Notes: generated by a model from the letters alone, not told the origin. 51,672 nt of DNA from Chloroflexota bacterium (GCA_005778035.1 SXKT01000040.1:1-51672), one strand, 5' to 3'. Numbered from the stretch's first letter, positions 8,132 through 51,672 are shown. Program-made: numbers and translations.

Positions 8132-8242
8132 ATTGACCTCCAAAAAAAAGAATGACAACAAAAAAATTATATCAATCCCAATTAGGATTTCAACCCAGCG
8201 GACCGGTTCGTGTCTTATAATTCAGTTCGACAAGGAACCAAT

Positions 8243-10417: not shown

Positions 10418-11671
10418 ATGCCAATTGACTTGCGGTTGTTGTTCTCCTTATTAGCGAAATCGATCTTCCAATCCCAGGCAACGGTTGCCCGATTGGGCAA
10501 ACGACGGATCCTATTCTTGATCATCTTTGTTTTCGTATGGCCGTTATATCAGCTGATCACGTGGTTTTTTTTAGGGCTGGATGAGATCTTCTTCCCTGGC
10601 TACCGAAAACAGGCCATTGTTAAGCCCTTGTTCATCATTGGCAATTTTCGTAGCGGTTCCACTTTCTTACATCGATTGCTATCTCGGGATCAACGAACCT
10701 TTACCAGCATGCGCACCGCCGATATCTTCCTTATGCCATCGGTGACCCAACGTAAGATCTTCCGGTTTTTTTCATTTTTAGATAACCGGCTGGGCGCGCC
10801 GGTAAATAAAACCATTCGGGGTGTAGACGACAAATCACTGGGCAAAGTGCGCATCCATAAGATAGGAATGTTTGAACCTGAAGAAGATGAGAATATCCTG
10901 CTGCACATATTTTCAACCTTTTTCGTCAGTTTCCTTTTCCCATTCCTGGAAGACCTCCCTCCGTTCGTCAAATTCGACGAAGAGATGCCTGAAAAAGACA
11001 AAATTAGGATCATGCGGTTTTACCGTGGTTGTGTCCAACGGCATTTATTTGCGCATGGCGGTCAGATCCATTTTGTCTCCAAGAGCCCTGCCAATAGTTC
11101 CAAGGTGTTGGCGCTGCGAAAAACTTTCCCCGATTGCCGGATCATCTATTTAGCCCGGGACCCAGCCGAAATGGTACCATCGACCATCAGTTGGTTGAGT
11201 TACGCATGGGGTATTTTCAATGACACCCAAGGCAGGTATATCAACCAACCCCAAATTCTTCAAATTTCCAAATATTGGTTCAGTTACCCATTACGAGTGA
11301 TCGATGAATTGGACAGCGCGCAATGCAAGATCATGGAGTATCAGGCACTGATCGACCAACCTGAAGATTGCATTCGGGCGATCTATTCTGATTTTGGCTA
11401 TCCTGAAAATTCTGGGCTCAGAAAAACGATCAAAAGGGCGGTTGAAGAAACCAAAAGTTTCCTAAGCGAACATCATTACGATCTGGCCAGTGTAGGGATA
11501 GAAAAAGGACAGATCGATCAGATTTTTTCGGAAGAATATTCACGCTTCGGTTTCCAAAATAATCACGCTCGGCATACCACCGTTACCACCCAGCGAAATT
11601 CAGTAGGCAGCGAAGACCAAAAGAAAAAGGGCGACATAGCCGCCCTTTCTGCTCCCCAGGTAAATCGCTAA
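10418..11671 (+). CDS. sulfotransferase-family protein, membrane-associated
   Basis: The 417-residue protein has the PAPS-binding signatures of sulfotransferases. GNFRSGSTFLHRLLS (near residues 73-87) fits the 5'-phosphosulfate loop, and YLARDPAEMVPS (near residue 241) fits the 3'-phosphate motif with its RDP core. A hydrophobic segment at about residues 29-50 (LIIFVFVWPLYQLITWFFLG) suggests membrane attachment. It would move sulfate from PAPS to a lipid, glycan or other acceptor. It follows the two-domain sugar-type dehydrogenase by 15 bases, so a glycan or glycolipid substrate is plausible but unproven. Its last codons contain the terminator of the convergent lgt gene; the two stops are four bases apart. 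Confidence 0.8.
   Translation: MPIDLRLLFSLLAKSIFQSQATVARLGKRRILFLIIFVFVWPLYQLITWFFLGLDEIFFPGYRKQAIVKPLFIIGNFRSGSTFLHRLLSRDQRTFTSMRTADIFLMPSVTQRKIFRFFSFLDNRLGAPVNKTIRGVDDKSLGKVRIHKIGMFEPEEDENILLHIFSTFFVSFLFPFLEDLPPFVKFDEEMPEKDKIRIMRFYRGCVQRHLFAHGGQIHFVSKSPANSSKVLALRKTFPDCRIIYLARDPAEMVPSTISWLSYAWGIFNDTQGRYINQPQILQISKYWFSYPLRVIDELDSAQCKIMEYQALIDQPEDCIRAIYSDFGYPENSGLRKTIKRAVEETKSFLSEHHYDLASVGIEKGQIDQIFSEEYSRFGFQNNHARHTTVTTQRNSVGSEDQKKKGDIAALSAPQVNR
11621..11648 (-). terminator. terminator of lgt, inside the sulfotransferase gene
   Basis: On the minus strand the stem AAAGGGCG / CGCCCTTT (eight pairs, seven-base loop, 11626-11648) is followed by a T-rich run. It lies 27 bases after the lgt stop and within the 3' end of the convergent coding sequence. 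Confidence 0.75.
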
Positions 11672-11675
11672 AAAC

Positions 11676-12539
11676 TTACTCTCTCACTTGATAATTGGAC
11701 GGGAAAATTTTGCCAGCGGCCCGTAACTTGCCAGCTTTGCCAAGAAGCAGGATCAGCCCAGCGATCGCCATCAAGAATGAAACCAGCATCGAAGTGGTCA
11801 GCCAACCCGCAGCCACAACGGGTTGGTCCGGCCGAAAGAACTCCACAATAGTGCGCCCTGCTCCTGCAACAACCAGCCAAAGCACAAAAGCGAGGCCGGG
11901 TTTCTTATTGCCGCCCATTTTGTACAAAATAAGCATGATCACGCCAAAACCGATCAAATTCCAGAGCATCTCGTAGGCGAAGGTCGGATGGAAACGAGTT
12001 GTTGCCACCGGGTAAACCTGCAGGTCAGCAAATTGTGCCAATCGATGGCCCCCATCAATTTTGATCCCCCATGGAAGTGAGGTCGGAGGGCCGTACAACT
12101 CCTGATTAATATAGTTCGCTGGCCGCGCCAGTGCTTGGCCCAATAGCGCCGCAGGGGCGATCGAATCCAAGAAAAGCCAAAAATCAAGTTTCTTATTCTT
12201 TAAATAAACGTATAAGGTAGCCGCCCCGGCAAGCAAACCACCAAAAAAATGCAAACCACCCTGTGGAATATTGAGTATCTGCAACGGTTGTTGCAAGTAA
12301 TAATCATTGCCACCGGCAATCGAATTGCCTACATACCACAAACGTGCGCCAATAACCCCTGCGGGCAACAACCACATCATCGCGTCCCACAAGACATCGG
12401 GGTCACCTCCGCGCCACTCGATCTGTTTTGCAGCCACCATTGCGCCAACCAGAACCCCAAACATCACCAATACGCCATACCACCTAAGGGCGAATGTAAA
12501 AGCGCCAATTTCAAAACTAAAGATCACAGGGTCGATCAT
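11676..12539 (-). CDS. lgt: prolipoprotein diacylglyceryl transferase
   Basis: This 287-residue polytopic membrane enzyme transfers diacylglycerol from phosphatidylglycerol to the lipobox cysteine of prolipoproteins, the first step of lipoprotein maturation. Visible Lgt motifs include GARLWYV, GGLHFFGGLLAG, NYINQELYG and HPTFAYEMLWNL. The start at 12539 (MIDPVIFSF) matches the family N-terminus; a longer frame reaching 12635 adds hydrophilic sequence that overlaps the upstream gene. Its ATG overlaps the TGA of the lipoyl-acyltransferase gene (ATGA), which implies translational coupling. A likely client encoded in the window is the lipoprotein penicillin-binding protein at 39311-41536. The hairpin at 11621-11648 ends the transcript. 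Confidence 0.95.
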   Translation of the reverse strand: MIDPVIFSFEIGAFTFALRWYGVLVMFGVLVGAMVAAKQIEWRGGDPDVLWDAMMWLLPAGVIGARLWYVGNSIAGGNDYYLQQPLQILNIPQGGLHFFGGLLAGAATLYVYLKNKKLDFWLFLDSIAPAALLGQALARPANYINQELYGPPTSLPWGIKIDGGHRLAQFADLQVYPVATTRFHPTFAYEMLWNLIGFGVIMLILYKMGGNKKPGLAFVLWLVVAGAGRTIVEFFRPDQPVVAAGWLTTSMLVSFLMAIAGLILLLGKAGKLRAAGKIFPSNYQVRE

Positions 12540-13633
12540 TTTCCTCCAAATTCGTTGTTCCAAACTTTGCCGGCCGGAATAATGGTCTTTGCCGGTACAT
12601 CGGCGAGCAATATTGCGCCATTCCCAATTCTGCAACCTTCTCCAATGCTTATACCAATGGCAGTCGTAACACCCATTCCCAGTAGCACATTTTTCCCGAT
12701 CCGAACGCCACCGGCAAGCATCGCGCCTGGCGCAATATGGGTCATTTCTCCAATTTCACAATCATGGCTCACAATCGCGCCAGTATTGACCATGCACATC
12801 CTCTCCAGTACCACATCTGTACCAATATAAGCGTTGGCAAAGACCTGCACACCATCGGCCACTTTTGCTGAAGCTTCAATGGTAGCCCTTGGATGAATTA
12901 TCGCCGGGATGGTAAAACCGGCAGCCAATATTCGCTCAAATATCTTTCTGCGCACAGCGAGGTTGATAATACCCCCGACACCATTTGCGGCAATACCTAT
13001 TCCCTGGCTTCTTAGCTTATCCAACAATTCCCCGCCACCACTCACGGGGTAGCCTAAAATGGTTCGATTCTCCTGGGCAGGGTCATCATCCAATACCGCT
13101 ACTACCTGGTATTGGCCAGCGGCAATGATCATCTCCAAAATTGCTTTGGCATGCCCACCCGCCCCATAGAGAATGATCTTGGTGTGATCTACTGGTTTGT
13201 TCTGTACATTTTTTCCACCGGCAATGGCTCTAACTACCGATTCCGTCACCAGTCGATCTGCTGGCATTTCCTCCAGGCTCACTCCCAATTGAGCTGCCAG
13301 CTGTTTGGCCGGTTCTGTGATACGCATGGAAGTGGACACGTTGGATGGAGGAGTTGGTTCCACCTGAATTTCAACTTCTGGCAAGGCTTCAGCGGCTTCA
13401 TCGGTTATGTATGCCAGCAAACTCCCCACTTGCAGAACTGTCCCCGCCAGGGCGATCGGACGAAAAAAACCCGAATGCTCCGCTTCAACATCGGCAGCTG
13501 CTTTGGTTGTTTCAATAGTCATCAGGATTTGGCCAACTTCGACCTTTTGTCCATCCTTGGCAAGGATTTCGACCAAGGTGGCTTCAGGCTCGTTTGCGTT
13601 CAACATCGGAACAGTTATTTTATGATTTGCCAT
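12536..13633 (-). CDS. lipoyl domain fused to a NeuD/PglD-like left-handed beta-helix acyltransferase
   Basis: The 365-residue protein starts like a 2-oxoacid dehydrogenase E2. A lipoyl domain spans residues ~3-78, with the lipoylation lysine K44 in ETTKAAADVEA. A segment at ~104-138 resembles a peripheral-subunit-binding domain but lacks the usual glycine-rich GRI loop. The expected E2 acyltransferase core is missing. Instead residues ~152-365 are a NeuD/PglD-type acyltransferase: Rossmann-like start KIILYGAGGHAKAIL, then hexapeptide repeats with the catalytic-type histidine in IVSHDCEIG. The start at 13633 is the first ATG; a TTG at 13651 would add six residues. E1 beta and E1 alpha genes lie upstream on the same strand, beyond one opposite-strand gene. 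I infer acyl transfer from lipoyl to an amino acceptor. Confidence 0.85.
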   Translation of the reverse strand: MANHKITVPMLNANEPEATLVEILAKDGQKVEVGQILMTIETTKAAADVEAEHSGFFRPIALAGTVLQVGSLLAYITDEAAEALPEVEIQVEPTPPSNVSTSMRITEPAKQLAAQLGVSLEEMPADRLVTESVVRAIAGGKNVQNKPVDHTKIILYGAGGHAKAILEMIIAAGQYQVVAVLDDDPAQENRTILGYPVSGGGELLDKLRSQGIGIAANGVGGIINLAVRRKIFERILAAGFTIPAIIHPRATIEASAKVADGVQVFANAYIGTDVVLERMCMVNTGAIVSHDCEIGEMTHIAPGAMLAGGVRIGKNVLLGMGVTTAIGISIGEGCRIGNGAILLADVPAKTIIPAGKVWNNEFGGK

Positions 13634-13711
13634 TTTTTGCCAATAATTCAATATTTGTATTTTTTCTAATTTTATTCCATAATAAATGAAATTCTATATG
13701 GAGGCGCTATT

Positions 13712-14470: not shown

Positions 14471-15490
14471 TTAATTCAACTTTAGCATCTCACGGATGGA
14501 TTGAACGATCTTCTGTTCAGAAGGAAGGATCACATCTTCCAAGGCTTTGGAATTGCCGATGGGCAGGTCAATTGCCGCAACGCGTTTTACAAGCAAATCC
14601 GGTTGCCCCTCACAAGCCTGTGCAATAACCTCACTCCCCCATCCCAAGGTTAATCCAGCCTCTTCAATCGTCACCAGTTTTTTGGTCTTTTTCAGGCTTG
14701 CTTCGATCGCAGCTAAATCAAACGGTGAGAGTTGGCTAAGCACAATGATCTCGCAAAAGATCTCGTCATTGTATGCCAATTCAACCGCTGCTTTTTTAGC
14801 TAATTCAAGGTTGTAACCGTACGTAGCGATGGTGCAGTGGTGTTTCGTAACACCTGAGAAACCCAATGTTGCGGTTGGGTATTTTGCCCCATCTACTTCC
14901 AACGAAAAATCGACCCAGTCTCCCTGGCCTATTTTGGCAATTGAGCTGGTATATAAAAGCTTGTGTTCCACGAACAAGATCGGTCCGGTGCTCTCTAAAA
15001 TCGCGGTACCAAGCAGGTCCCCGGCGTCTATCACGGAGTTGGGAGCGATCACTGTTAGCCCAGGTATGCCCAAAAAATGTTTTTCGAGAGATTGGCTGTG
15101 GGTTGGGCCATACCCCCTGCGACCACCCATGGGTGTGCGGACCACCAAAGGTACATCCACACTTTCGTTGTACATCCAATGAAATTTGGACGCATGGTTG
15201 AGGATTTGGTCCATTGCCAAAGTGATAAAGTCACCGAACATGATCTCAACGACCGGCCGTTTACCCGACATAGCCAGGCCATTCGCAATTCCAAGCATGG
15301 CAGCTTCCGAAATGGGTGTCGTGAAAACCCTTTCCGGAAACTCAGTGGAACAGCCTTTGGTCACCTTAAAAGCGCCGCCATAAGGGTCCAAAATATCTTC
15401 ACCCAGCAGAATCACATTTGGGTCTTTGCGCATCGCGGTTCGCAATCCCTCGTTCAGGCTTTCCAATACTGTGGTTACGGTTTTGGTCAT
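14471..15490 (-). CDS. 2-oxoacid dehydrogenase E1 component, beta subunit
   Basis: The 339-residue protein is a transketolase-like E1 beta subunit (pyruvate, acetoin or branched-chain oxoacid type). LGEDILDPYGGAFKVTKG, FTTPISEAAMLGIANGLA and MGGRRGYGPTHSQSLEKHF are characteristic, and the C-terminal transketolase domain carries the usual VTIEEA segment. With E1 alpha it forms the thiamine diphosphate enzyme that decarboxylates a 2-oxoacid and acylates a lipoyl group. The start overlaps the E1 alpha stop (ATGA). The substrate cannot be set from sequence. The only lipoyl protein seen nearby is the NeuD-like fusion at 12536-13633. No E3 gene is in the cluster. Confidence 0.92.
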   Translation of the reverse strand: MTKTVTTVLESLNEGLRTAMRKDPNVILLGEDILDPYGGAFKVTKGCSTEFPERVFTTPISEAAMLGIANGLAMSGKRPVVEIMFGDFITLAMDQILNHASKFHWMYNESVDVPLVVRTPMGGRRGYGPTHSQSLEKHFLGIPGLTVIAPNSVIDAGDLLGTAILESTGPILFVEHKLLYTSSIAKIGQGDWVDFSLEVDGAKYPTATLGFSGVTKHHCTIATYGYNLELAKKAAVELAYNDEIFCEIIVLSQLSPFDLAAIEASLKKTKKLVTIEEAGLTLGWGSEVIAQACEGQPDLLVKRVAAIDLPIGNSKALEDVILPSEQKIVQSIREMLKLN

Positions 15491-16392
15491 GCAGGCCTCC
15501 CATTCAACGATGGAAGATCGGCGGAATTTGCATGGAAGAAAGCAGCATCGATCAGCTGGTTCACTTCCGCCTCACAAGGCTCCTTGTCAGCCGTGTCTAA
15601 TCGTAGGCCATGGATCTGCAAGGGGTCATATTTTTGCCTCAGTTTCTTCACCATTTCCTTGTCGCGAGTATCATCTCCCTTGCTATGCGCCATAAATCGG
15701 TGTGTATTCAAGATAATGGCAGCAGGACAACCGGTTGAACGGATCTTACCGATCACTTGTTCCGCAACTGGCAATATCTCTAGAACATCGCTGGTAAATA
15801 GTTCTGTCGCATTTATTCCAAAACCTTCAAATCTGCCTACTATTGAACCGGCAATTGCCATTTCAACCGGAGTGGTTTGGGCAAAATGGTTATTCTCTAC
15901 CACGAACAAGATCGGTAGCTGCCACAGGGCGGCGATATTCATCGTCTCGTAAACCACCCCCTGGCCCAACGTTCCATCACCGATGAATACCGCCGAGATG
16001 GAACCGCGGCCATCGATCTTGGATGAAAGTGCCATTCCGGCTGCATTGGGTACGATCCCACCCTGAATACCGTTGGAGAAAAAATTTTTCCAATGGATGT
16101 GTTGGCTGCCACCGCGCCCCCCTACGATACCAGTGGATTTTCCCATCAATTCCGCCGCCAAGGCTGCTGGTTCGCCGCCATATGCCAAAAAATGCCCATG
16201 GCATCGGTGGTTGCTCCATACTACATCTTCAGATTTGAGATTGGAAATGACGCCCACCGCATTAGCCTCCTGGCCAATGTAAGCATGGGTGGTCCCTACC
16301 AATTTTCCGGTAGAAAACTCAGCCAACGCTTGCTCTTCAAAACGGCGGATCAGGTACATTGTTCTGTATAGTTCTATGTGGCTGCTCATCAT
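15487..16392 (-). CDS. 2-oxoacid dehydrogenase E1 component, alpha subunit
   Basis: The 301-residue protein is the thiamine diphosphate-binding E1 alpha subunit. The TPP motif runs from IGDGTLGQG to ENN, and RRFEEQALAEFSTGKLVG and GRGGSQHIH match the family. It is slightly shorter than typical E1 alpha (~320-360 aa), ending soon after the E1 beta contact region. Two tandem ATG codons start the frame. An extended -10 element lies so close that the transcript should begin at or next to the first ATG, so translation is probably leaderless. Its stop overlaps the E1 beta start. The 2-oxoacid substrate is unknown; the acetoin or pyruvate class is most similar in style. Confidence 0.92.
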   Translation of the reverse strand: MMSSHIELYRTMYLIRRFEEQALAEFSTGKLVGTTHAYIGQEANAVGVISNLKSEDVVWSNHRCHGHFLAYGGEPAALAAELMGKSTGIVGGRGGSQHIHWKNFFSNGIQGGIVPNAAGMALSSKIDGRGSISAVFIGDGTLGQGVVYETMNIAALWQLPILFVVENNHFAQTTPVEMAIAGSIVGRFEGFGINATELFTSDVLEILPVAEQVIGKIRSTGCPAAIILNTHRFMAHSKGDDTRDKEMVKKLRQKYDPLQIHGLRLDTADKEPCEAEVNQLIDAAFFHANSADLPSLNGRPA

Positions 16393-26053: not shown

Positions 26054-27052
26054 TCAAAAAGAGATGCCCCTTATGCGTTGCCGGATCTTGTACAGGGAAT
26101 ACAACAATGGGATCAGCGGTTTATCCATGGCTGGGAACGAGCGGCGTACCACGCCCCCAAAACCCCGTTTGAACCTGTAAACTCCCCACAACCCATCACT
26201 CCTTGTCTCAAAATCCCGCTCCAGCTTTTCTTCGGGCTCGTCGGGAATACCCCAAAGGTCGTACGTCCTGCATCCTTGCTCTTTTGCCCACAACATGGCC
26301 TTCCATTGCAACAAATAAGCCGGCATGCGGTTACGTTCCCGGTCAGAAGATGCCCCATACAAATACCAGCTTCGCTCTCCAACGCAAAAAACCATCAAAC
26401 CCGCCAGAGGGAGACCATCGACCTCGGCTATCAGTAAGGCTACTCTGCCAGTTGGCCAAAAAAGGTCGAGGCCCTTTTGGTAATATTCTCGGGTGTGGAC
26501 CTCAAAACCATCTCTCCCACCCGTTTCTTGCATGAGCTCATAAAAAGCATCCATCGTGTTGTGTTCAACAACGAAAACATCCTTTTTTTCTGCCAACCGA
26601 ATGTTATACCGGCATTTTTGTTTCATCCGGGCAAGGATCTCTTCAACCTGTGCGCTGATGTCTACGGTGATGGTTCGCAACGGTTGAATGGCATGCTGAG
26701 AGAGCGTATAACCAAACAGCGGTAGTTGGTATTCATCATCCCAGCAATCCAACTCCACTTTTATAAAAACCGCCCTTTGTTTCCGGCATTCCTCCTCAAT
26801 AAGTTTGCCCAACTCGCCCGTTTGCATTTGCGCAAAGTTCCGCGTAGAAACCTTGGGAACATATGCAACGCTAAAACCAAATGGTAATGGCTTAAATAAA
26901 ATTTGCGCTCCAAATTGGCCCGCTACCAATCTGGTAGCACTCCATCCAAATTGGCATTTCAAATCACCCCATTCCGCGGTTTGCAAAAGGTGGTGGTTCG
27001 GTTCGGTGGCCTCCAAAAAAATTTTCCACGAGGCGCTATCCATCAAGGGCAT
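26054..27052 (-). CDS. FemAB/FemX-family aminoacyltransferase-like protein
   Basis: The 332-residue protein matches the FemXAB family, which uses aminoacyl-tRNA to add residues to peptidoglycan precursors. The GNAT-fold signatures are MKQKCRYNIRLAEKKDV and YLYGASSDRERNRMPAYLLQW, and the conserved YDLWGIP segment follows. There is no inserted coiled-coil arm. It is the last gene of the exopolysaccharide run, six bases after the CapD-like gene, with GAGGT before the ATG. FemAB-like proteins in polysaccharide loci may have roles outside peptidoglycan bridges, so its substrate is open. Chloroflexota interpeptide bridges would be one use. Confidence 0.85.
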   Translation of the reverse strand: MPLMDSASWKIFLEATEPNHHLLQTAEWGDLKCQFGWSATRLVAGQFGAQILFKPLPFGFSVAYVPKVSTRNFAQMQTGELGKLIEEECRKQRAVFIKVELDCWDDEYQLPLFGYTLSQHAIQPLRTITVDISAQVEEILARMKQKCRYNIRLAEKKDVFVVEHNTMDAFYELMQETGGRDGFEVHTREYYQKGLDLFWPTGRVALLIAEVDGLPLAGLMVFCVGERSWYLYGASSDRERNRMPAYLLQWKAMLWAKEQGCRTYDLWGIPDEPEEKLERDFETRSDGLWGVYRFKRGFGGVVRRSFPAMDKPLIPLLYSLYKIRQRIRGISF

Positions 27053-42266: not shown

Positions 42267-43127
42267 TTAGCGAATTGCCCAAACACCCAGTTTGGAATCC
42301 CGCGCTTTCTTTTCTGCCTGTTTCAACAAGTCAAAACAAGAGCTGTTCGGTGCCGGATCATAGGTGGTTAGCAACCCTTGCTCTAACAGGGCTACTGCCG
42401 GCATCTTCCCATCCAACACCACCCACCGCAAATAGATCCCGGTAGGGTCGGTATCTTGCGCGTCTTTATACAACAAAACATCGCGGCCAAAAGCAAGGCT
42501 GCCGTTGGTGTTGGTTGAAACCAACCCATAACCGGCATCGGCGGGGGCTTCGACCCCTATATACTGCACTATGTAGGCATACTCGCCTACCAATACCTTT
42601 AGCACATTGCCGCTAATAACATCCAAAACCCGGCCAGTTTGCGGTGTACCTTTGGGCAAACAAGCCAGCCCAGCCGAGGCAGCCACTCCTTCACTTCCGC
42701 CAGCGATGCTTGCTGTCGGTGTCGCCTGTTCTGGCACAGCCACTACCTCGGGCGTCGCGGTTGGCAACACAAACGGGGTCGCGCTTGGCAAAGGTGTATC
42801 CGTAGGCAGTACCGTAAACCCTTCCGGCAACGGTGTCTCCGTAAAAAATAACTCGGCCAGTGGCTGGGTGGTGATGGTGGGAGGCACGCTGGCGGTGGCA
42901 TAGTACATTTTTAAGATCGCCTGCTCTGCTGCCTGGGTCATCAGCACTTTGGGTTCAGTGGTAGGGGTAGGGAAGATATTGCCCAACAAACCGCCAAAGG
43001 ATTTGCCTTCCGGCATTCTGAACAGGAATACGACCAAAGCCGTAACGCCAATGAACAACAAGGACGTATGGATAAGGATCAGTTTGTTGACAAAATCTTT
43101 TTTCCAAAATTTTAAAAATTCTTGCAT
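42267..43127 (-). CDS. membrane-anchored protein with degenerate staphylococcal-nuclease-like domain
   Basis: The 286-residue protein has one membrane segment (about residues 15-36), then a Thr/Pro/Ala-rich linker of about 100 residues. The C-terminal domain has the order of a thermonuclease (SNase) fold: GRVLDVISGNVLKVL, VQYIGVEAP, GIYLRWVVLDGKMPAVALLEQGLL, AEKKARDSKLGVW. The arginine expected before IGV is Gln, and the GR of the DxYGR segment is GI. Two of the catalytic positions therefore look lost, and nuclease activity is doubtful. The start at 43127 is the first ATG with the membrane segment near the N-terminus. It lies downstream of the protease-cytochrome fusion gene and is probably surface exposed. 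Confidence 0.75.
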   Translation of the reverse strand: MQEFLKFWKKDFVNKLILIHTSLLFIGVTALVVFLFRMPEGKSFGGLLGNIFPTPTTEPKVLMTQAAEQAILKMYYATASVPPTITTQPLAELFFTETPLPEGFTVLPTDTPLPSATPFVLPTATPEVVAVPEQATPTASIAGGSEGVAASAGLACLPKGTPQTGRVLDVISGNVLKVLVGEYAYIVQYIGVEAPADAGYGLVSTNTNGSLAFGRDVLLYKDAQDTDPTGIYLRWVVLDGKMPAVALLEQGLLTTYDPAPNSSCFDLLKQAEKKARDSKLGVWAIR

Positions 43128-43156
43128 AAGGTCAATTTCATTTTTCCTAAAAGTTG

Positions 43157-43190
43157 TGTGCCTCAATTCCTCAACGGAAATGAGGCACAC
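43157..43190 (-). terminator. hairpin after the protease-cytochrome fusion gene (possible terminator)
   Basis: GTGTGCCTCA (43157-43166) and TGAGGCACAC (43181-43190) form a perfect ten-pair stem, 27 bases beyond the stop. The following minus-strand sequence is only weakly T-rich, so some read-through into the next gene is possible. Confidence 0.55.
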
Positions 43191-43217: not shown

Positions 43218-46200
43218 TTATGGCGTGGTCGTGGCGGTTGGGGTTGCGGCCATAAATCCATTGGGATATTTTACCGGTGTTCCACTTTCCACCACGGTGG
43301 TTGTATAGGTATGCGTGTGGCATTTGATACAACTCTGGCCGGTGTAATCGATCGGCGTGGGTGTTGGTGTTCCGGCGCCTACCGGTTCTGCGGCGTGCCC
43401 GCTTCCGCCAGTATGGCTGGTTGTTAGGCCAATATGGCAGGCAACACATAACGCTGAACTCGTACCGGTATTATCAAATGAGTTTGCGCCGGTTAGGCTG
43501 GTAAATGTTACCGCGTCGGTTAGCCGCGTCATCGATGTGAAATTGGTAGGCCTTTGGCCGCTATACAGGTTGGCGCGAACACTAAAAATATTGCCGGTAT
43601 TTCCATGAGAATCATGGCACTGAATGCACAATAACTCAAAATCTGCTTCTGCCTTGCCGCTGTAATGAAGGTTGGAATGGGTCACAACCACAGTTGCCGA
43701 ACCGGATGCGCTGTGGCAGGTAAGGCAGAAATCATTGTTCTCATAACTGGAAGAAGGATAGCTTAGGATATCCCCTGCCGATTGGGCGGAATGCACGCGG
43801 TGGCACAAAGCACACGCATCTGTGGAAGTGCTGAAAGAACCGTGTGGGCCGTTATCATGATTGACCGTAATGCTCAACGCGGCACTGGTGGTGGTCTGGT
43901 TTTCACTATCCGTCACTGTGGCGGTTATGCTGTGTGTGCCGGGGGTTAATGTGCTGCTATTCAGCGTAGTGCCAGAGGCCAAATAGCCATCAATATCTGA
44001 GTACCAGCGGATCGCGCTGCCTGTGATCACCCCATCTTCAGCATCCTGCGCGGACGCGGTCAGGGTGACGGTATCACCTTTGTCATACGTGCTCGTAGCG
44101 CCGGGTGTCAGTTCAATGGTAGGAGCCACAGCGATCTTTACCAGCGGCAGCTGGTTGGCGGTCACTTCCAGTTTCACCTGGTCGAACCTGATCTGGATCG
44201 TTTCAGCCTGGTTGTTGGGACCCTGGCCAACGGCCAGCAAACGCAGCCTGAACTGTTTTAGGCGCGCGTTGGTATTGATAACGTCGCTCACATCATCCAC
44301 GTAGACATTGGCGTTGGCGCTTAATGGCGGCGGGTTGGTGGCATTGAAGGAAGAAATGGTCACCCAGCTATATCCATCATCAGGCGAGATCTGCAAGGCA
44401 TACTCATCGTCAGCCCATGTGGAAGCTCCATCAGCCTCAAAATAGAAGCGCGCGTTTAAGACCACTTTTTCAATCACCGGGATGCTGGTCGATGCCTGGC
44501 TATTCACCTTGACAAAATCGGGGATCAGCCATGAACCACCGCTGGCAAAGGTGCCTGCGCAGGTAGCCCAGGTATTGTCAAACCCTTCCGCGGCATCCGG
44601 GAATTCCGGCCCAATGGCGTTCGCGCCAATATCGCTGATGGTCAGGGAAATGGCCAAATTATCGGTACAGCTTTGTTCACGAGGGTCAATGTAAGATGGG
44701 TCTGCATCCTCGTTATAGGCCCAAAATTCTTCATACTGGGGCAGGTTAAAACCATCCGGCGGTTCTGGCATGGTGGTTGAAGCGGCAGTGGGGCCAGGGG
44801 TTGGTGTTACAAAGCCAGCGCCCAGTGTCATTGCCAAATACACTTGCGGCATGCCCGCGCCAAAAGAGTTGGATGAACCCAGTTCCTTGGCGGTGCCATA
44901 CAAGGCAGCAGCCACTTTGTCTGGGGTGTCGAATGAGGTTCCCTGGTTGGCCAACAACGCGACCAAACCGCTGACCTGGGCAGAAGAAACAGACGTGCCG
45001 CTCCAACCGGCGTAACCGCCGCCAGGAACCGCGGATAAGATCCCCGAACCCGGTGCAACCAGATCGACAGCAATGCCGAAGGTTGAAAAACTTGCCAAGT
45101 TGGTAAACGATGAATCTACCGCGCCAACACCTATGACGTGCGGGTTGGCCGCCGGGAACAAGGCCGCGTCGGTACCGGTATTGCCGGTTGCGGCAATCAC
45201 GGTCACATTGTTTGCGTAAGCGTAATTGGTGGCTTCAAGCAGGGCGTCGCTATTATACTCACCAGCAAAACCCAGCTGGATCACATCCGCGCCGTTATCT
45301 ACCGCGTAATGAATGGCGGCAACCACATCTGAGTACTTGCCGTAGCCAGATTCATTGAGCGCCTTAAGGACCATCACCTTGGCGCCGGGCGCCACGCCAA
45401 CCATTCCTTGGCCATCGTTATTGGCGGCGATGATGCCCGCCGTGTGGGTGCCATGGCCGTTTTGGTCGGTCAGTACATCTGGGCTGCCATCCACAAAGTT
45501 CCAACCGTGGGTGTCATCCACATAACCGTTGTTATCGTTATCGCCGTTTCCAGCGTTATCATCATTGGTCCAAATCCGGCCCAATAGTTCAGGGTGGGCA
45601 GAAGATACTCCGGTATCGATCACGGCAACCACGCTGCCGGTGCCGGTAGAAATATCCCACGCTTCAACGCCTGTTTGCATGGCGGCCAGATTTTGCTGAT
45701 GCCCATCCAAATAATAGGTATCGGTGGGGGGGGTACCGGCCAATTGGCCAACATAATCCGGCTCGGCATATTCCACAAACAGGTTCCCGTTCAGGTCTTC
45801 CAACACGCTATCCACCGAGCCCGCGGGCACATCCATGATGGTAATACCGGCTTGCTTCAGCTTGCCGGTCACATCACCTTCCGCAAGGTCGATCAAGATC
45901 TTCTCGATCACTACCGGAACAAACGGCCTGAACTTGACGATCACGGATTCGGATAGCTCCGGGTCGCCGGTTTCGGGGTCGGGCACATACGGTGTCGGCA
46001 TCGCGGTAGGCTGCTCTGCGGTAACAGTTGGGCTGGGTTGTTCTGTAATGGTAGCCAACGGGGTGGGTGTCTCTGTGCCATCCAGCACCGGCTGGGTTTC
46101 TTCCACCACCAGGGTGGGCTGGGCTTCAAGCGTTTGTGTCACCGCCGCGTTGGGGGTGATGGTGGGCGCCTGGGTGGCAGTCGCCTCTGGCGTGTGGGTA

Positions 46201-47303
46201 GGTTCAGCCACTGTTGGCTGGGCAGTGGGGGTTGCAAATTCATTACCCAGCACCATTTGGGCTGCCTTGCTGGTATCTTGCAAGGCTGTTTCCAGGTTGG
46301 CGATATCTACCGCGTCTACATTGCTGATGGTATCCACATATTTGATCGCGCCCTGGCAGCCTTCATCAAATTGGCCGGAAATATTTTTCCAATTAAAGGC
46401 CATGTTCAGGCGCGCGGTTTTCTTCACCGCAGATTCAATACAACCTGGCCCGGCATTGTAATTTGAGGCAGCAAGGCGCCAAATATCAGACCGGCCGATC
46501 GTTTCGATCGATTTGGTGGAATGGGAATCTAAAATGGAGAAAGCATTGTTGTAATTGGCCCGCAAAGCAGCCGCGATCACCGGAATGCTGGTTTTTGCCT
46601 GGGTAAGGTTTACGCCGCCGGCGCAGTGCTCACAATCGCCACTTACGGAACGCAATACCGCGCCGCGCAGGGTGGCTTTTTCTTTATCGGGCAGCCAGGT
46701 ATAGGGTTTTTCGCAGGTCTTGGCGGTAAACACAGACCGGCAGAATTGTGTATAGGTTTCAGGGTTCCAATGCAAAATGGTATCGGCACCCATCTGGGTG
46801 ATGTGCCCCAAACCGTATTCGTAGTAACCATAAATGGTCATATGGCGCGATGGCCAAAACTGGCTTTCAATTGCCAGGATATTTTTAAGGAGATAGGGTG
46901 GAACATTATTGGCCTTGGCAGCGAGCAAGATCTGCTCGTCGTACTGGTTCTGCCACAAGATCACAGCGTCGCGCGCGGCGATCTCGCCACACGGGCTGGC
47001 ATTGCCATTGCCCATCAGGCCATTTCCAGGGCAACTTTTGGCGTTCACCAAACCCAGGTTGATCAATTTTCCGGCCAAAATGGCGTAAGAGCGGTCGGTC
47101 GCCAAGGCGTCCGCCGTCTTGGCCTCATCCAGCCAGGAGGGTGGTTCAGCTTGTTGGTTGCCTGAAACAAAAGGACGCAATGCGCTGGCAGGGTTGGCAC
47201 CCCCCAGCAGGGAAAGCAATATAACAAAAATGGCCAACAGGGCAAACCCCGGTTGGTTCCTCTTGCTACCGTTAGCGTATCTTTCCAGTCGATTATTTTT
47301 CAC
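43218..47303 (-). CDS. secreted lytic transglycosylase - subtilase - pentaheme cytochrome fusion protein
   Basis: The 1361-residue protein has a signal or anchor segment at residues ~19-38. Residues ~120-330 are an SLT-type lytic transglycosylase domain: catalytic Glu in ILAIESQFW (E146), then YGLGHITQ and NYNAGPG. A Thr/Pro-rich linker (355-440) leads to a propeptide-like region (450-520) and an S8 subtilase with triad D563 (VIDTG), H617 (GHGTH) and S771 (GTSVSS), plus oxyanion N708. Residues ~850-1050 may be a beta-rich binding domain; 1052-1147 are Ig/PKD-like. Five CxxCH motifs at 1164, 1193, 1226, 1286 and 1325 would bind c-type heme outside the cell. The heme tail is homologous to the adjacent cytochrome at 47556-49145. 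All catalytic residues look intact. Confidence 0.88.
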   Translation of the reverse strand: MKNNRLERYANGSKRNQPGFALLAIFVILLSLLGGANPASALRPFVSGNQQAEPPSWLDEAKTADALATDRSYAILAGKLINLGLVNAKSCPGNGLMGNGNASPCGEIAARDAVILWQNQYDEQILLAAKANNVPPYLLKNILAIESQFWPSRHMTIYGYYEYGLGHITQMGADTILHWNPETYTQFCRSVFTAKTCEKPYTWLPDKEKATLRGAVLRSVSGDCEHCAGGVNLTQAKTSIPVIAAALRANYNNAFSILDSHSTKSIETIGRSDIWRLAASNYNAGPGCIESAVKKTARLNMAFNWKNISGQFDEGCQGAIKYVDTISNVDAVDIANLETALQDTSKAAQMVLGNEFATPTAQPTVAEPTHTPEATATQAPTITPNAAVTQTLEAQPTLVVEETQPVLDGTETPTPLATITEQPSPTVTAEQPTAMPTPYVPDPETGDPELSESVIVKFRPFVPVVIEKILIDLAEGDVTGKLKQAGITIMDVPAGSVDSVLEDLNGNLFVEYAEPDYVGQLAGTPPTDTYYLDGHQQNLAAMQTGVEAWDISTGTGSVVAVIDTGVSSAHPELLGRIWTNDDNAGNGDNDNNGYVDDTHGWNFVDGSPDVLTDQNGHGTHTAGIIAANNDGQGMVGVAPGAKVMVLKALNESGYGKYSDVVAAIHYAVDNGADVIQLGFAGEYNSDALLEATNYAYANNVTVIAATGNTGTDAALFPAANPHVIGVGAVDSSFTNLASFSTFGIAVDLVAPGSGILSAVPGGGYAGWSGTSVSSAQVSGLVALLANQGTSFDTPDKVAAALYGTAKELGSSNSFGAGMPQVYLAMTLGAGFVTPTPGPTAASTTMPEPPDGFNLPQYEEFWAYNEDADPSYIDPREQSCTDNLAISLTISDIGANAIGPEFPDAAEGFDNTWATCAGTFASGGSWLIPDFVKVNSQASTSIPVIEKVVLNARFYFEADGASTWADDEYALQISPDDGYSWVTISSFNATNPPPLSANANVYVDDVSDVINTNARLKQFRLRLLAVGQGPNNQAETIQIRFDQVKLEVTANQLPLVKIAVAPTIELTPGATSTYDKGDTVTLTASAQDAEDGVITGSAIRWYSDIDGYLASGTTLNSSTLTPGTHSITATVTDSENQTTTSAALSITVNHDNGPHGSFSTSTDACALCHRVHSAQSAGDILSYPSSSYENNDFCLTCHSASGSATVVVTHSNLHYSGKAEADFELLCIQCHDSHGNTGNIFSVRANLYSGQRPTNFTSMTRLTDAVTFTSLTGANSFDNTGTSSALCVACHIGLTTSHTGGSGHAAEPVGAGTPTPTPIDYTGQSCIKCHTHTYTTTVVESGTPVKYPNGFMAATPTATTTP

Positions 47304-47509: not shown

Positions 47510-47535
47510 GGGGAGGGCCGGGCCTGGCCCTCCCC
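47510..47535. repeat. GC-rich inverted repeat after the hexaheme cytochrome gene
   Basis: GGGGAGGGCC and GGCCCTCCCC form a perfect ten-pair stem with a six-base loop, 20 bases beyond the cytochrome stop on the minus strand. No T run follows on that strand, so it may be a processing or stability hairpin that lets the downstream fusion gene be co-transcribed. Confidence 0.55.
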
Positions 47536-47555: not shown

Positions 47556-49145
47556 CTACGGCCAAGCGGTTGGGGTTGCAGCCTCACCAACATATTGGAA
47601 GTTGACGCCGTGACCATGGCATTTTACACACATGGTCCGTTCATCAGTCTTCAACAGGTAACTGCCGGAGGTTGTCAGGCTGGCATTCGGATAGATGGTG
47701 TTGGTCTGATCCATGACCGCGGAGGAACCGTGGGCGCTATGGCAATCCACACAGGAGACCGAACCACCGGCGCTGTGGCGATACATGAAGTATGCGTCGC
47801 CAGAAGCATTTTCACGGCTTGTAGTGCCGCCAGCGGCAAAGTATCGGTCGTGGCATTGGGCACAGAAGAAGCTGACCGTTGCGCGACCAGCGCTACTACC
47901 GCCGGTCCCAATCAAGGTAGTGTAATTGTTGTTGAACTTAACAATACCAGGGGCTTGGGTGGGGCAGGGGAAAATCAGAGCGTTGTAATCGTAATCAGTA
48001 CCCTGCCTTGGGGCTGCCAAAACACCAGGAGTAGCAGTGACCTGAATGGCGTTGACCGCGGAAAGATCAGGCAAGGTGCCTGTTCCATCGTTCTTATAAC
48101 AAGTGTATAAGGAGGATGGTCGAGCACCTGGTGTACCAACTGCGCCCGGAGTGGCAAAAACGAATTCGGACGGCTTGATGGCCGGTAACTGGTAACCCCA
48201 ACTACGGAAAGCGGTATCACCCTTTTGTTGTGAATAATTGGACCACGTACCCCAGGCGCCATTTTCAAAGCGGGAGCGGAACATACCAACGGAAGGATCC
48301 CGATCGGCTTCACTATTGGCGGTATACCAATAATTTACCGCAGTTCCAGTAGTAGGCGCTGCAGGGGCAGCTTCGCGCACGGTAAAGCCTAAGGTGGTCT
48401 CAGCAGCAGTGTTCCATTGCGTCAAAGTATTGCCAGATGTAACTTCCATACCATTTGAACCAGAAGGCTGGAAGCGCAACAGGCGGTACGATGGGATCGG
48501 CATACCTTCATAAACACCACCCTTGCCAGTATTCAAAGTAGTCGCGGTAGCAGAAGAACTGCGTCCAGCGTTACCATGGGGATCATGGCAGGAAGTACAT
48601 TCCAATTCGGTTGAGGTGGTAGCCGCTGCCCCAGCAAAGAAGCTGGCGCTGTTGTTACCAGAACCCCAATAGGTCATGCCGGTGTAGCCATCACTGCCAC
48701 CCAAACCCGCAACAGAGTGGGTTGAGGTTGTGGCTGTTTGGCCCGGGTAACCGGCTGCATAATCGTAACCATTCAAGCCATTAAAAGTATGGACATTGGA
48801 TGAGTTTACGAAACCGCCACCGAACAACGGAGCATTCGCCACACCTTGCGAACCAAGTGGAGATGCGAGGGTACCAGAACCGGTGATGGAACCCATATAA
48901 TAGCCATCTTTCACATTGGTGTAAGCACCAGCGCCATCATGACAGGTCAGACAGGCCTCGGTAACATCAGTGTTGACCAACAGAAAACCATCACTGGAGA
49001 CAGCGCTGTGCATACGGTGGCAACCGGCGCAGTTAGGGGTTGAGGTGGAGAATCCACCGTGAGGGCCGTTATCAGCCATTACGGTAGTTCCGAGCGCCGC
49101 AACGAACAATAAAGCTAAAATTGTTGCAAATATAAATTTCTTCAT
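47556..49145 (-). CDS. secreted multiheme c-type cytochrome (six CxxCH)
   Basis: The 529-residue protein has a clear signal peptide (residues 1-24, ending VMA). It has six CxxCH heme motifs at residues 39, 65, 183, 428, 465 and 506. They lie in N-terminal (39-187) and C-terminal (428-510) groups, separated by about 240 heme-free residues rich in Thr, Ser, Gly and Trp/Tyr. The first ~190 residues are homologous to the heme tail of the neighbouring protease fusion: both contain NGPHGxFSTSTxxCxxCH. No membrane anchor is seen at the C-terminus. The start at 49145 gives the signal peptide directly; ATGs at 49157 and 49181 are in frame, and the AGGAG lies between them, leaving the start uncertain. 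An extracellular electron-transfer role is inferred. Confidence 0.88.
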   Translation of the reverse strand: MKKFIFATILALLFVAALGTTVMADNGPHGGFSTSTPNCAGCHRMHSAVSSDGFLLVNTDVTEACLTCHDGAGAYTNVKDGYYMGSITGSGTLASPLGSQGVANAPLFGGGFVNSSNVHTFNGLNGYDYAAGYPGQTATTSTHSVAGLGGSDGYTGMTYWGSGNNSASFFAGAAATTSTELECTSCHDPHGNAGRSSSATATTLNTGKGGVYEGMPIPSYRLLRFQPSGSNGMEVTSGNTLTQWNTAAETTLGFTVREAAPAAPTTGTAVNYWYTANSEADRDPSVGMFRSRFENGAWGTWSNYSQQKGDTAFRSWGYQLPAIKPSEFVFATPGAVGTPGARPSSLYTCYKNDGTGTLPDLSAVNAIQVTATPGVLAAPRQGTDYDYNALIFPCPTQAPGIVKFNNNYTTLIGTGGSSAGRATVSFFCAQCHDRYFAAGGTTSRENASGDAYFMYRHSAGGSVSCVDCHSAHGSSAVMDQTNTIYPNASLTTSGSYLLKTDERTMCVKCHGHGVNFQYVGEAATPTAWP

Positions 49146-49228
49146 TGTAGAAAACATTCTCCTTTCAAAGGATTCAAACATTGTTTTGGGTCCAGGTTAC
49201 TATTCATTACAATTTTTCACCTCCGAGC

Positions 49229-50482
49229 TTAGTAAGACCAAATTTGAACACGGTTGTTCGCCCTGTCAGCGATGTACAACCGACCGGTTCCATCCATAAC
49301 AATATCGTTGGGGTAATACAGGTTCCCAATATCACTCCCCAAACCTCCGATCTTGTAAGCAAAGGAAGGTTCCTCGCTGGAAAGATCATAAGCCATGATA
49401 TTCGCGCCAAGCGCATCCGCTACAAGCAGGCAATCCCTTGGATCAACCCACATTCCCCGGGGAAGGTTTAAAGCGCCTTCGGTTGACCCAAAGGCAAAGA
49501 AAGTCTTATATGCCATGGTTGTATCAAAAGCGGAAATTCTGGAATTATTGCCATCAGCTACATAGTAATTTCCAGCAGAATCTTGAACGACGGTCTGAGG
49601 AAAAGCCAGCTCTCCGGCAGCATTGCCAAATTTGCCAGCGAACTTAAATTCCGGAGCATACGTTTTCAAATCCACGAGCGCGGTATGGTCGACGATCACA
49701 AAACCATGTTTTCCTGGCGACGCATCTGTATAAAGCAGGTCGCCAGTCTCATTGAAACGTACTCCCATAGGCGTAAATTGGTTAACATTATCCAAAATTA
49801 CGTCCATCGGTTCCTGGGCGGTTTCCCCCATCTGATAGTAGATCTTATGGTTAGCTGAATCATATCTGAGGAGGACCAACCCCTCGAGGGATGCGACCCC
49901 ATTCGTACTGAGATACTTGGTAATGGTCATGTTTGCCGCAATGATGGCATCGATAAAATTTCCATCCGCATCGTAAACATTGATGGAGTTGCTGTAACGA
50001 TCCACTGCAAATAACCGGCCGTCTGGCGCAGTTGCCATATATAAAGGGTCGCGGCTAGATTTTGTCGTCGCGATCGGCGCAAACTGAAAGGCAAAATTTC
50101 CATCACGGTCGAACATTTTGATCATACGCTCACCACCAGCTTCAGCGATATAAATTCGCTGGGAATCTGGCGAAACCGCGACCCCGATCGGCTTTTCAAG
50201 CCCGTCAATACTGAATTTGTACGTTGGCGCATAACAGTTATTTCCAAGAACATTTACAGGAAGAACTTCACTGATCGGCCTCGGGTTGAAAATGTAACTG
50301 ATCAGAAAGAAACCCACCAAAATTATTGCGCCCAATAATCCCAATTGCAATAGTAAGAGGAAACGACGTTTCCCTTCATCCAACGGGGTATCATCGTCCT
50401 CTACAACTTCAACCAGGTCGTATTGGTCCGGATTGAGTTCTTCAGGGGTATATTCGTCGTTTGGTTTGTTATCCAATGTCAT
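49229..50482 (-). CDS. membrane-anchored NHL-repeat beta-propeller protein
   Basis: The 417-residue protein has a charged cytoplasmic N-terminus (residues 1-40), one membrane segment (41-65) and a large outer domain of NHL/six-bladed beta-propeller repeats. Repeat cores include GLEKPIGVAVSPDSQRIYIAE, with similar LAFPQTVVQDSAGNYYVAD and LNLPRGMWVDPRDCLLVAD, and the final blade ends ADRANNRVQIW. NHL propellers bind proteins or glycans and often accompany multiheme cytochromes in metal-reducing bacteria. It lies 13 bases downstream of the TPR gene and 83 bases upstream of the cytochrome. It may be a docking platform. No enzymatic motif is seen. Confidence 0.85.
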   Translation of the reverse strand: MTLDNKPNDEYTPEELNPDQYDLVEVVEDDDTPLDEGKRRFLLLLQLGLLGAIILVGFFLISYIFNPRPISEVLPVNVLGNNCYAPTYKFSIDGLEKPIGVAVSPDSQRIYIAEAGGERMIKMFDRDGNFAFQFAPIATTKSSRDPLYMATAPDGRLFAVDRYSNSINVYDADGNFIDAIIAANMTITKYLSTNGVASLEGLVLLRYDSANHKIYYQMGETAQEPMDVILDNVNQFTPMGVRFNETGDLLYTDASPGKHGFVIVDHTALVDLKTYAPEFKFAGKFGNAAGELAFPQTVVQDSAGNYYVADGNNSRISAFDTTMAYKTFFAFGSTEGALNLPRGMWVDPRDCLLVADALGANIMAYDLSSEEPSFAYKIGGLGSDIGNLYYPNDIVMDGTGRLYIADRANNRVQIWSY

Positions 50483-50495
50483 TTTAAAGATCCCA

Positions 50496-51455
50496 TTATT
50501 TATTTAACAAAATAGTAATTCGACCATAACCGGTTTTGGCGGGAATATAGTTTGGGTCAATTGATAACGCATTTTCGTAACCGATCAAGGCGTTTTCATA
50601 ATCCTGAACAGCTTCATATACCATTCCCAAGCCGTTGTAAATGGGTGCCTGGGAAGAATCCGCTTCCAATGCCTTTTGCAATAATTCCTTGGCTTTATCA
50701 AAATCATTATCACAATAGGCGATCATGCCTTTTGAATAATCAGCCAAGGCATCCTGGCCAGTTGCTTCAAAAATGGAAAGTTCGCCTTCATATGCTTCCT
50801 TAAAATCTGGAACAAACTCAGTCGCTTTGTGAAATAACTTCAATGCATCCTCATTATTTCCATTACCGGCGTACGCAGTGGCCAGTTTTACCATTGTGTC
50901 AGCATCCATCTTGTTCCACTGGTAGTTTTGTTCCAAAACCACGATCGCGTTTCCCCATTGTTCAAGTTGGATGAAGCTGTCGCCCAGATAATACGCCGCA
51001 GATTGTAATTGCTTATTTAAACCCGGCATGTCCGCATCTTTATTTAACTCAATAAATTTTTGCAGTGGCTCAATAGCCAGATCTGGCTGATTGGATTTTG
51101 CGTACGCAATGCCCAGGATTATTAATCCTCGTGGATTATCTTGTTCGATGATCAGCACACTCGTTACAAGTGAGATAGCCTGTTCATATTTTTGGTTAAC
51201 CAGATAGGTATCTGCGAGTGCAAGCCGTTTATCCAAATTGTTTGGGTCTTCCCTAACTGCTGCTTCACCAGCTTCGATACCCTCAACAGCAAGGCTTTGT
51301 TCAGGGGTGTAATAGCGATCGTAAAAGTAATACCCAACCGTTGAACCAGCTAACAAAACTAAAACCACACCAGATAGTATGACGATCCGTTGTAGTTGTG
51401 CGGTGCTAGAAAACAATCCGCCAAATGTATCGAGAAAATTTTTATTCTTATTCAT
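50496..51455 (-). CDS. membrane-anchored TPR protein
   Basis: The 319-residue protein has one membrane segment (residues 24-44) and then about seven tetratricopeptide-like repeats. Examples are NPRGLIILGIAYAKSNQPDLA and, near the C-terminus, APIYNGLGMVYEAVQDYENAL followed by a further repeat. TPR arrays act as protein-protein scaffolds. The anchor orientation puts the repeats on the outside if the N-terminus is cytoplasmic. The start at 51455 is an ATG; a TTG one codon upstream is also possible. It lies 30 bases downstream of the partial cytochrome gene and 13 bases upstream of the NHL gene. An assembly role for surface cytochromes is inferred. Confidence 0.85.
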   Translation of the reverse strand: MNKNKNFLDTFGGLFSSTAQLQRIVILSGVVLVLLAGSTVGYYFYDRYYTPEQSLAVEGIEAGEAAVREDPNNLDKRLALADTYLVNQKYEQAISLVTSVLIIEQDNPRGLIILGIAYAKSNQPDLAIEPLQKFIELNKDADMPGLNKQLQSAAYYLGDSFIQLEQWGNAIVVLEQNYQWNKMDADTMVKLATAYAGNGNNEDALKLFHKATEFVPDFKEAYEGELSIFEATGQDALADYSKGMIAYCDNDFDKAKELLQKALEADSSQAPIYNGLGMVYEAVQDYENALIGYENALSIDPNYIPAKTGYGRITILLNK

Positions 51456-51485
51456 CAATTACAAGTCTCTCTTAAAAGTAGTTTT

Positions 51486-51672
51486 TTACGGTATCGATTC
51501 CGAAACGCCCGCCGAATGGCACTTGGCACAAGTCACTTGTTGGTGGCAGGTTTGGCAAACTTGCTCGCCCACACGGCCAACTTCCGCCCCGTGGGTAAAG
51601 GCCATATTTTCGGGGTGTTCCAGGTTATGGCAGGCGCCGTTGTTACAAAAGCCGGTACCGTGGCACAGGTAA
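51486..51672 (-). CDS. multiheme c-type cytochrome, C-terminal fragment (partial at window edge)
   Basis: The minus strand has an open frame from the right edge to a TAA at 51486-51488, encoding the last 61 residues of a protein whose start is outside the window. It is dense in heme motifs: a leading LCH that probably completes a CxxCH, then CNNGACH (a CX4CH spacing), CQTCH and CAKCH. Histidines in NLEHP and FTHG could be distal ligands. It is probably the first visible gene of the TPR-NHL-cytochrome operon, 30 bases upstream of the TPR gene. A plus-strand frame over the same bases is a shadow. Confidence 0.85.
   Translation of the reverse strand, partial: YLCHGTGFCNNGACHNLEHPENMAFTHGAEVGRVGEQVCQTCHQQVTCAKCHSAGVSESIP

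Follow-up and report, generated by a model that had tools for sequence, protein, structure and literature searches.

Our analysis shows that a single gene in a 51,672-nucleotide stretch of DNA from a Chloroflexota bacterium (GCA_005778035.1 SXKT01000040.1:1-51672; the whole stretch is called the window here) encodes a real and conserved three-part protein, in which a lytic transglycosylase (LT)-like domain, a subtilisin-type protease and a multihaem cytochrome c module follow one another, and that this gene lies within a locus of the electron-export type. The draft bin to which the window belongs, as contig C30, comprises 89 contigs with 1.63 Mb in total and is 64% complete. The gene is a single uninterrupted open reading frame (ORF) on the minus strand (43218..47303) with a GTG start, 1361 codons for amino acids and no internal stops. 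The catalytic and haem-binding residues are conserved, as are the architecture and the surrounding locus, and genes for cytochrome c maturation (ccm) are present in the same genome. To judge from what we could find, the combination is apparently undescribed so far. We propose, with a probability of about one half, that the product is exported as a preproprotein, whose task is to put in place and finish the outer end of a conduit by which electrons leave through a peptidoglycan-containing envelope.

The gene call rests on the stop-free ORF, on Pfam matches and on an architecture that recurs among relatives. From the N-terminus (all coordinates on the minus strand), the protein carries a Sec signal peptide, judged by eye from the sequence (residues 1-42, cut after PASA and before LR; 47178..47303), an SLT-like LT domain (residues 54-335; 46299..47144), a Thr/Pro-rich linker (residues ~356-440; 45984..46238), a fervidolysin-type propeptide (residues 453-516; 45756..45947), a Peptidase S8 catalytic domain (residues 554-817; 44853..45644), two beta-rich domains that together span about residues 861-1147, and a five-haem module (residues 1149-1345; 43269..43859) with CxxCH motifs at 1164, 1193, 1226, 1286 and 1325. 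The first beta-rich domain (residues 861-1055; 44139..44723) is supported by blastp matches and is present in several relatives, and the second (residues 1059-1147; 43863..44129) is a weak PKD/Ig-like domain, with Big_7 and PKD_4 matches below cut-off. A preliminary description of this DNA had placed the three types of domain in this order within one ORF, with a D563/H617/S771 triad and five C-terminal CxxCH motifs; the ORF coordinates and all of these residue numbers proved exact, and the Pfam search agreed. That description had overlooked the propeptide, the two beta domains and the absence of a haem module that most relatives possess.

Could such a fusion be an assembly error, or a frameshift that merged separate genes? 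The bin is in 89 contigs and only 64% complete, and linkers matching the one described here break the assemblies of relatives. However, the frame is open throughout, and the fusion was assembled independently in ten genomes. The homologue survey, set beforehand as the check on whether relatives are always split, recovered 11 uninterrupted LT-protease-multihaem proteins with the same order in ten genomes of one family (1361-2266 aa, the window protein included); the relatives among them (L057, L058, L059, L060, L115, L116, L118, L119, L120 and L121) have 1496-2266 aa and 7 or 15 CxxCH motifs. Four further genomes carry the fusion spread over a contig break, which in three of them (G001, G049 and G058) falls within the repetitive linker; the contig ends share 89 identical bases there in G001 and overlap by 20 in G058, and either join can be read in frame. 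In the fourth, G393, the contig is cut past the protease and the haem tail begins another contig, and in G304 a contig cut ahead of the protease has truncated the protein at its N-terminus. Carriers of the fusion cover five genera of the family. Because the same design recurs in related species within a conserved gene cluster, we take the fusion to be real and have rejected an artefact, to which we give next to no chance. To this extent the preliminary interpretation stands: three activities are truly fused, the fusion is conserved among relatives, and it sits inside a multihaem-cytochrome locus.

The subtilase domain scores 149.5 bits against the Peptidase_S8 cut-off of 21.8, and its nearest solved structures are the AK.1 protease and thermitase. 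The triad (D563/H617/S771) and the oxyanion Asn (N708) are invariant across 17 aligned relatives, D563 being missing from one row cut by a contig end. The propeptide match is marginal in the window protein (20.8 bits, with a cut-off of 21) and lies above the cut-off (25-38 bits) in the scanned relatives that retain a subtilase; in the triple fusions it is situated between the LT and the protease. Subtilases normally cleave themselves between the propeptide and the catalytic domain, so a propeptide in this position predicts that the precursor would split in two, into an LT piece of ~51 kDa and a protease-cytochrome piece of ~87 kDa. The idea of one polypeptide at the cell surface, put forward in the preliminary description, thus holds for the precursor, but the mature product may consist of two polypeptides.

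The transglycosylase assignment is the least secure of the three domain calls. The Pfam SLT profile (PF01464) gives 14.7 bits with the whole protein and 19.9 with the domain alone, both below the cut-off of 21.3; the same profile matched 12 of the 12 family members tested (best 1.3e-5), with no serious competing family. E146 (IESQFWP; 46866..46868), the predicted catalytic Glu, is invariant in 48/48 relatives, the eight Cys of the domain are invariant or almost so, and a NYNAGPG-type motif is preserved among the LT relatives. When the family profile was aligned with that of canonical SLT domains encoded by the same genomes, E146 fell on their catalytic Glu (E 9e-4, at a probability of only 23%), and the order of the catalytic Glu and the GLMQ and YNAG motifs is visible in the domain, the alignment of E146 to the SLT Glu being weak. 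Comparison with solved structures returned only a weak match to the YNAG motif and no solved relative, and single-sequence structure predictions were unusable (predicted local distance difference test, pLDDT, of 35 for the LT domain and 34 for the beta region). We call the domain a diverged SLT-like lytic transglycosylase family of its own, predicted to be active. Its divergence and weak scores would also suit an uncleaved enzyme-cytochrome at the surface, in which the LT domain and the propeptide anchor the protease and haem tail to peptidoglycan with little or no wall cutting; the long flexible Thr/Pro linker fits such an anchor, as does one relative (G415) in which the LT is joined to the haem tail in the absence of a protease. 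However, the relatives have retained both E146 and the NYNAGPG-type motif, and a propeptide next to an intact protease normally means self-cleavage, as is established for subtilases. An anchor of this kind seems to us unlikely, though far from negligible.

As for the haem module, none of 20,000 shuffles of the stretch holding the five CxxCH motifs (residues 1164-1329) reached five motifs, the maximum being two, and Paired_CXXCH_1 scores above its cut-off (22.8 and 20.6 bits, respectively). With these five motifs, a signal peptide and a ccm operon in the genome, the protein qualifies as a multihaem c-type cytochrome. Identity between the module and the initial part of the 15-haem relatives is 38-46%, and the window copy is the smallest of the family, being the only complete form found with five haems and without CYT7, the haem tail that occurs in 15 of 152 family genomes. 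In most relatives (e.g. L058:8715-13205, in the last ~25 residues) the seven CxxCH of CYT7 are followed by a conserved non-canonical CxxxCH, which suggests an eighth haem and is absent from the window protein. Might the window copy, shorn of its principal haem module, be in decay? Its lack of CYT7, which did not turn up in the rest of the bin either, and the long end branches of its LT and S8 domains would agree with this. Against it, the catalytic residues and the five haem motifs are all intact, no stop, frameshift or haem remnant was seen in any frame beyond the stop codon, the protein ends after its first five haem motifs and the next gene begins 27 bases on; moreover, the failure to find CYT7 is weak evidence in a bin that is 64% complete. 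We regard decay as decidedly improbable.

The LT family is tied to cytochromes c twice, independently: it is fused to one, and it adjoins the operon for their maturation. The window's genome has a System I operon with ccmF, ccmH, a tlpA-like gene, ccmA, ccmB and ccmC, and the nearest stand-alone relative of the LT (L086:4305-6065, on contig C2) lies directly behind ccmC (L086:6172-6861). In each of the five family genomes checked, such an LT stands directly behind ccmABC, at the end of a complete ccm operon; at three loci examined in two other families (f13 and f14) none was seen there.

The fusion belongs to a conserved run of genes that begins with a sensor histidine kinase, a decahaem cytochrome (DmsE-like) and a cytochrome b (b561/formate dehydrogenase gamma type), and continues with a NapC/NrfH-like-anchored octahaem cytochrome, a TPR protein, an NHL propeller, one to four hexa- or heptahaem cytochromes, the fusion and an SNase-like protein. 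In the window's genome this locus is divided: contig C2 ends within the octahaem gene (L085:12120-12866), and the end of the window holds the C-terminal tail of that gene (51486..51671, minus strand). The contigs do not overlap, and synteny suggests that they join here. Further along the window, all on the minus strand, come a membrane-anchored TPR protein (50496..51458) and a membrane-anchored NHL beta-propeller protein (49229..50482), both conserved in the locus, then a hexahaem secreted cytochrome (47556..49181) that is a partner and paralogue (53%) of the haem module of the fusion, and, behind the fusion, an SNase-like secreted or membrane protein (42267..43190) that is found downstream of it in most relatives. 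No prolyl isomerase gene was recognised beside the fusion, nor a porin gene among the locus genes identified, a genome-wide porin search not having been made. The gene content fits a quinol-oxidising membrane cytochrome together with extracellular multihaem proteins, and the locus looks like an electron-export conduit. Two other features were observed in this region. A few kb upstream of the split locus, contig C2 carries further multihaem cytochrome genes with 7 and 9 CxxCH (L085:3914-6403). Between the hexahaem cytochrome gene and the fusion, just behind the former, lies a GC-rich inverted repeat that is perfect over 10 bp, GGGGAGGGCC-AGGCCC-GGCCCTCCCC (window 47510-47535); it has no T-run behind it on the coding strand and may be an mRNA stabiliser or an attenuator.

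How did the fusion arise? The same slot is occupied elsewhere in the class and phylum by the tail alone (CYT7 in G895, G805, G1044, G1090, G842, G959 and three genomes of family f44), by a protease with the tail (G610, G1051 and G887) or, in G415, by an LT with the tail. Since these partial builds hold the same slot, the fusion appears to have been built stepwise, and the simplest reading is that the tail came first, the protease next and the LT last, the window copy having subsequently lost CYT7. A single clade for the fused LTs was not rejected (approximately unbiased, AU, p 0.27). A scan of named genome contigs returned ordinary haem-free subtilases only, and a scan of viral contigs nothing useful. 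Secreted subtilases abound in this lineage, in which many S8 matches lack haem motifs, and beta/PKD-type domains are typical of exoenzymes; the protein might thus be a scavenging enzyme that digests external protein, with the haem module as a redox or haem-binding accessory of no respiratory role. However, the gene accompanies the decahaem/octahaem/cytochrome-b locus wherever the family flanks are long enough, and the haem-linked proteases form a group apart from the ordinary ones, with a support (87/88) that is suggestive and not decisive. We hold a scavenging role to be improbable.

We therefore return to the proposal of a preproprotein that builds the outer end of an electron conduit. We favour it because the conserved locus carries quinol-side cytochromes (cytochrome b561/FdnI-like, NapC/NrfH-like octahaem and DmsE-like decahaem), and because of the invariant catalytic residues, the same domain order in 11 proteins, the ccm genes and the position of the propeptide. 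The precursor would be exported by Sec, and the System I Ccm machinery would attach its haems on the outer side of the membrane. The propeptide would assist the folding of the subtilase, and the protease would then cut near residue 520 and free the LT piece, which may locally open glycan strands so that bulky cytochromes pass or become seated. The protease would trim itself and may do the same to the hexahaem cytochromes encoded alongside. Electrons could run from quinol to the cytochrome b, or the octahaem NapC/NrfH-like cytochrome, and the decahaem cytochrome, and from there to the hexahaem cytochromes and the haem tail of the fusion. The LT activity, the self-cleavage, the substrates of the protease, the electron transfer and the order of electron flow are all matters that we infer from sequence. 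Several points weigh against this proposal. The LT domain is below its Pfam cut-off and has no solved relative, and the propeptide match of the window protein is just short of its own; the fusion occurs in only ~1/10 of the family genomes; and relatives that have the haem tail and lack the LT or the protease indicate that the locus can do without either enzyme. Relations between a protease and its substrates cannot be read from sequence, and for this genome respiration, localisation and a single-membrane envelope are presumed rather than directly evidenced. A self-installing conduit, with one precursor that brings a wall-opening enzyme, a maturation protease and a terminal haem wire, cleaves itself after export and so makes the route for electrons across the peptidoglycan of a cell that lacks an outer-membrane porin-cytochrome complex, is offered here tentatively, the odds leaning somewhat against it.

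Elsewhere in the window, a FemAB-type peptidyltransferase gene (26054-27052) is consistent with branched-peptide peptidoglycan. Two other ORFs also combine domains. In one (12536-13651), which neighbours E1-type dehydrogenase genes (14471-16392), a biotin/lipoyl domain and a PglD-type hexapeptide acyltransferase share a polypeptide, an unusual substitute for the classical E2; in the other (8210-10402), next to a sulfotransferase (10418-11671), a zinc-type alcohol dehydrogenase is combined with an oxidoreductase of the GFO/IDH/MocA type.

With regard to known systems, the LT resembles SLT-type lytic transglycosylases (PF01464) in the catalytic Glu, which lies in an ES motif, and in the succession of a GLxxxT-like and a YNAG-like motif, but it differs from them in its ~280 residues, its eight conserved Cys and its sub-cut-off Pfam score. 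The protease shares the triad, the oxyanion Asn and the order of the propeptide with thermitase/AK.1-type subtilases that have a fervidolysin-type propeptide, and we know of no other case in which such a subtilase is joined to LT and haem domains. The window protein cannot be placed with the MtrC/OmcA outer-membrane cytochromes, its score for the MtrC/MtrF domain II/IV profile (23.7 bits) being below the cut-off of 30, which some relatives pass. We found no papers on cytochrome-protease or cytochrome-transglycosylase fusions in the openly accessible literature, subscription papers being outside the scope of the search.

The nearest functional analogy is that of Geobacter sulfurreducens, in which the subtilisin-like protease OzpA trims the octahaem nanowire cytochrome OmcZ (PMC9473688); protease and cytochrome have separate genes in that system, which also includes a prolyl isomerase (PMC11208441). 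In both cases a genetic link joins a subtilisin-type protease to an extracellular multihaem cytochrome, and the precedent that the preliminary description had seen in this pair is apt as an analogy. Kinship was rejected, since the haem modules of the fusion family gave no sequence match to OmcZ or to any solved nanowire cytochrome; here, moreover, the protease is fused, within a single polypeptide that includes an LT domain, and the protein falls outside the OzpA-OmcZ type. In the Chloroflexi themselves, Anaerolineales have very large multihaem cytochromes with a variable number of haems and no porin-cytochrome complex, and are thought to be without a Gram-negative envelope (PMC7399161); as far as a comparison by description goes, the text of that paper includes no protease or wall-hydrolase domains. 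The organism of the window is presumably an Anaerolineales-like member of the Chloroflexota. To the question of how electrons cross peptidoglycan without a porin-cytochrome complex, a conserved precursor that ties the opening of the wall and maturation by proteolysis to a haem wire offers an answer that is concrete and can be tested, and the natural variants that each lack one module are ready comparisons. Architecturally, the nearest analogy is that of the anaerobic methanotrophic (ANME) archaea, cells without an outer membrane in which fusions of S-layer and multihaem cytochrome domains conduct electrons past the outer layer (PMC9012536): structural S-layer domains are joined to the haems there, and two hydrolases here.

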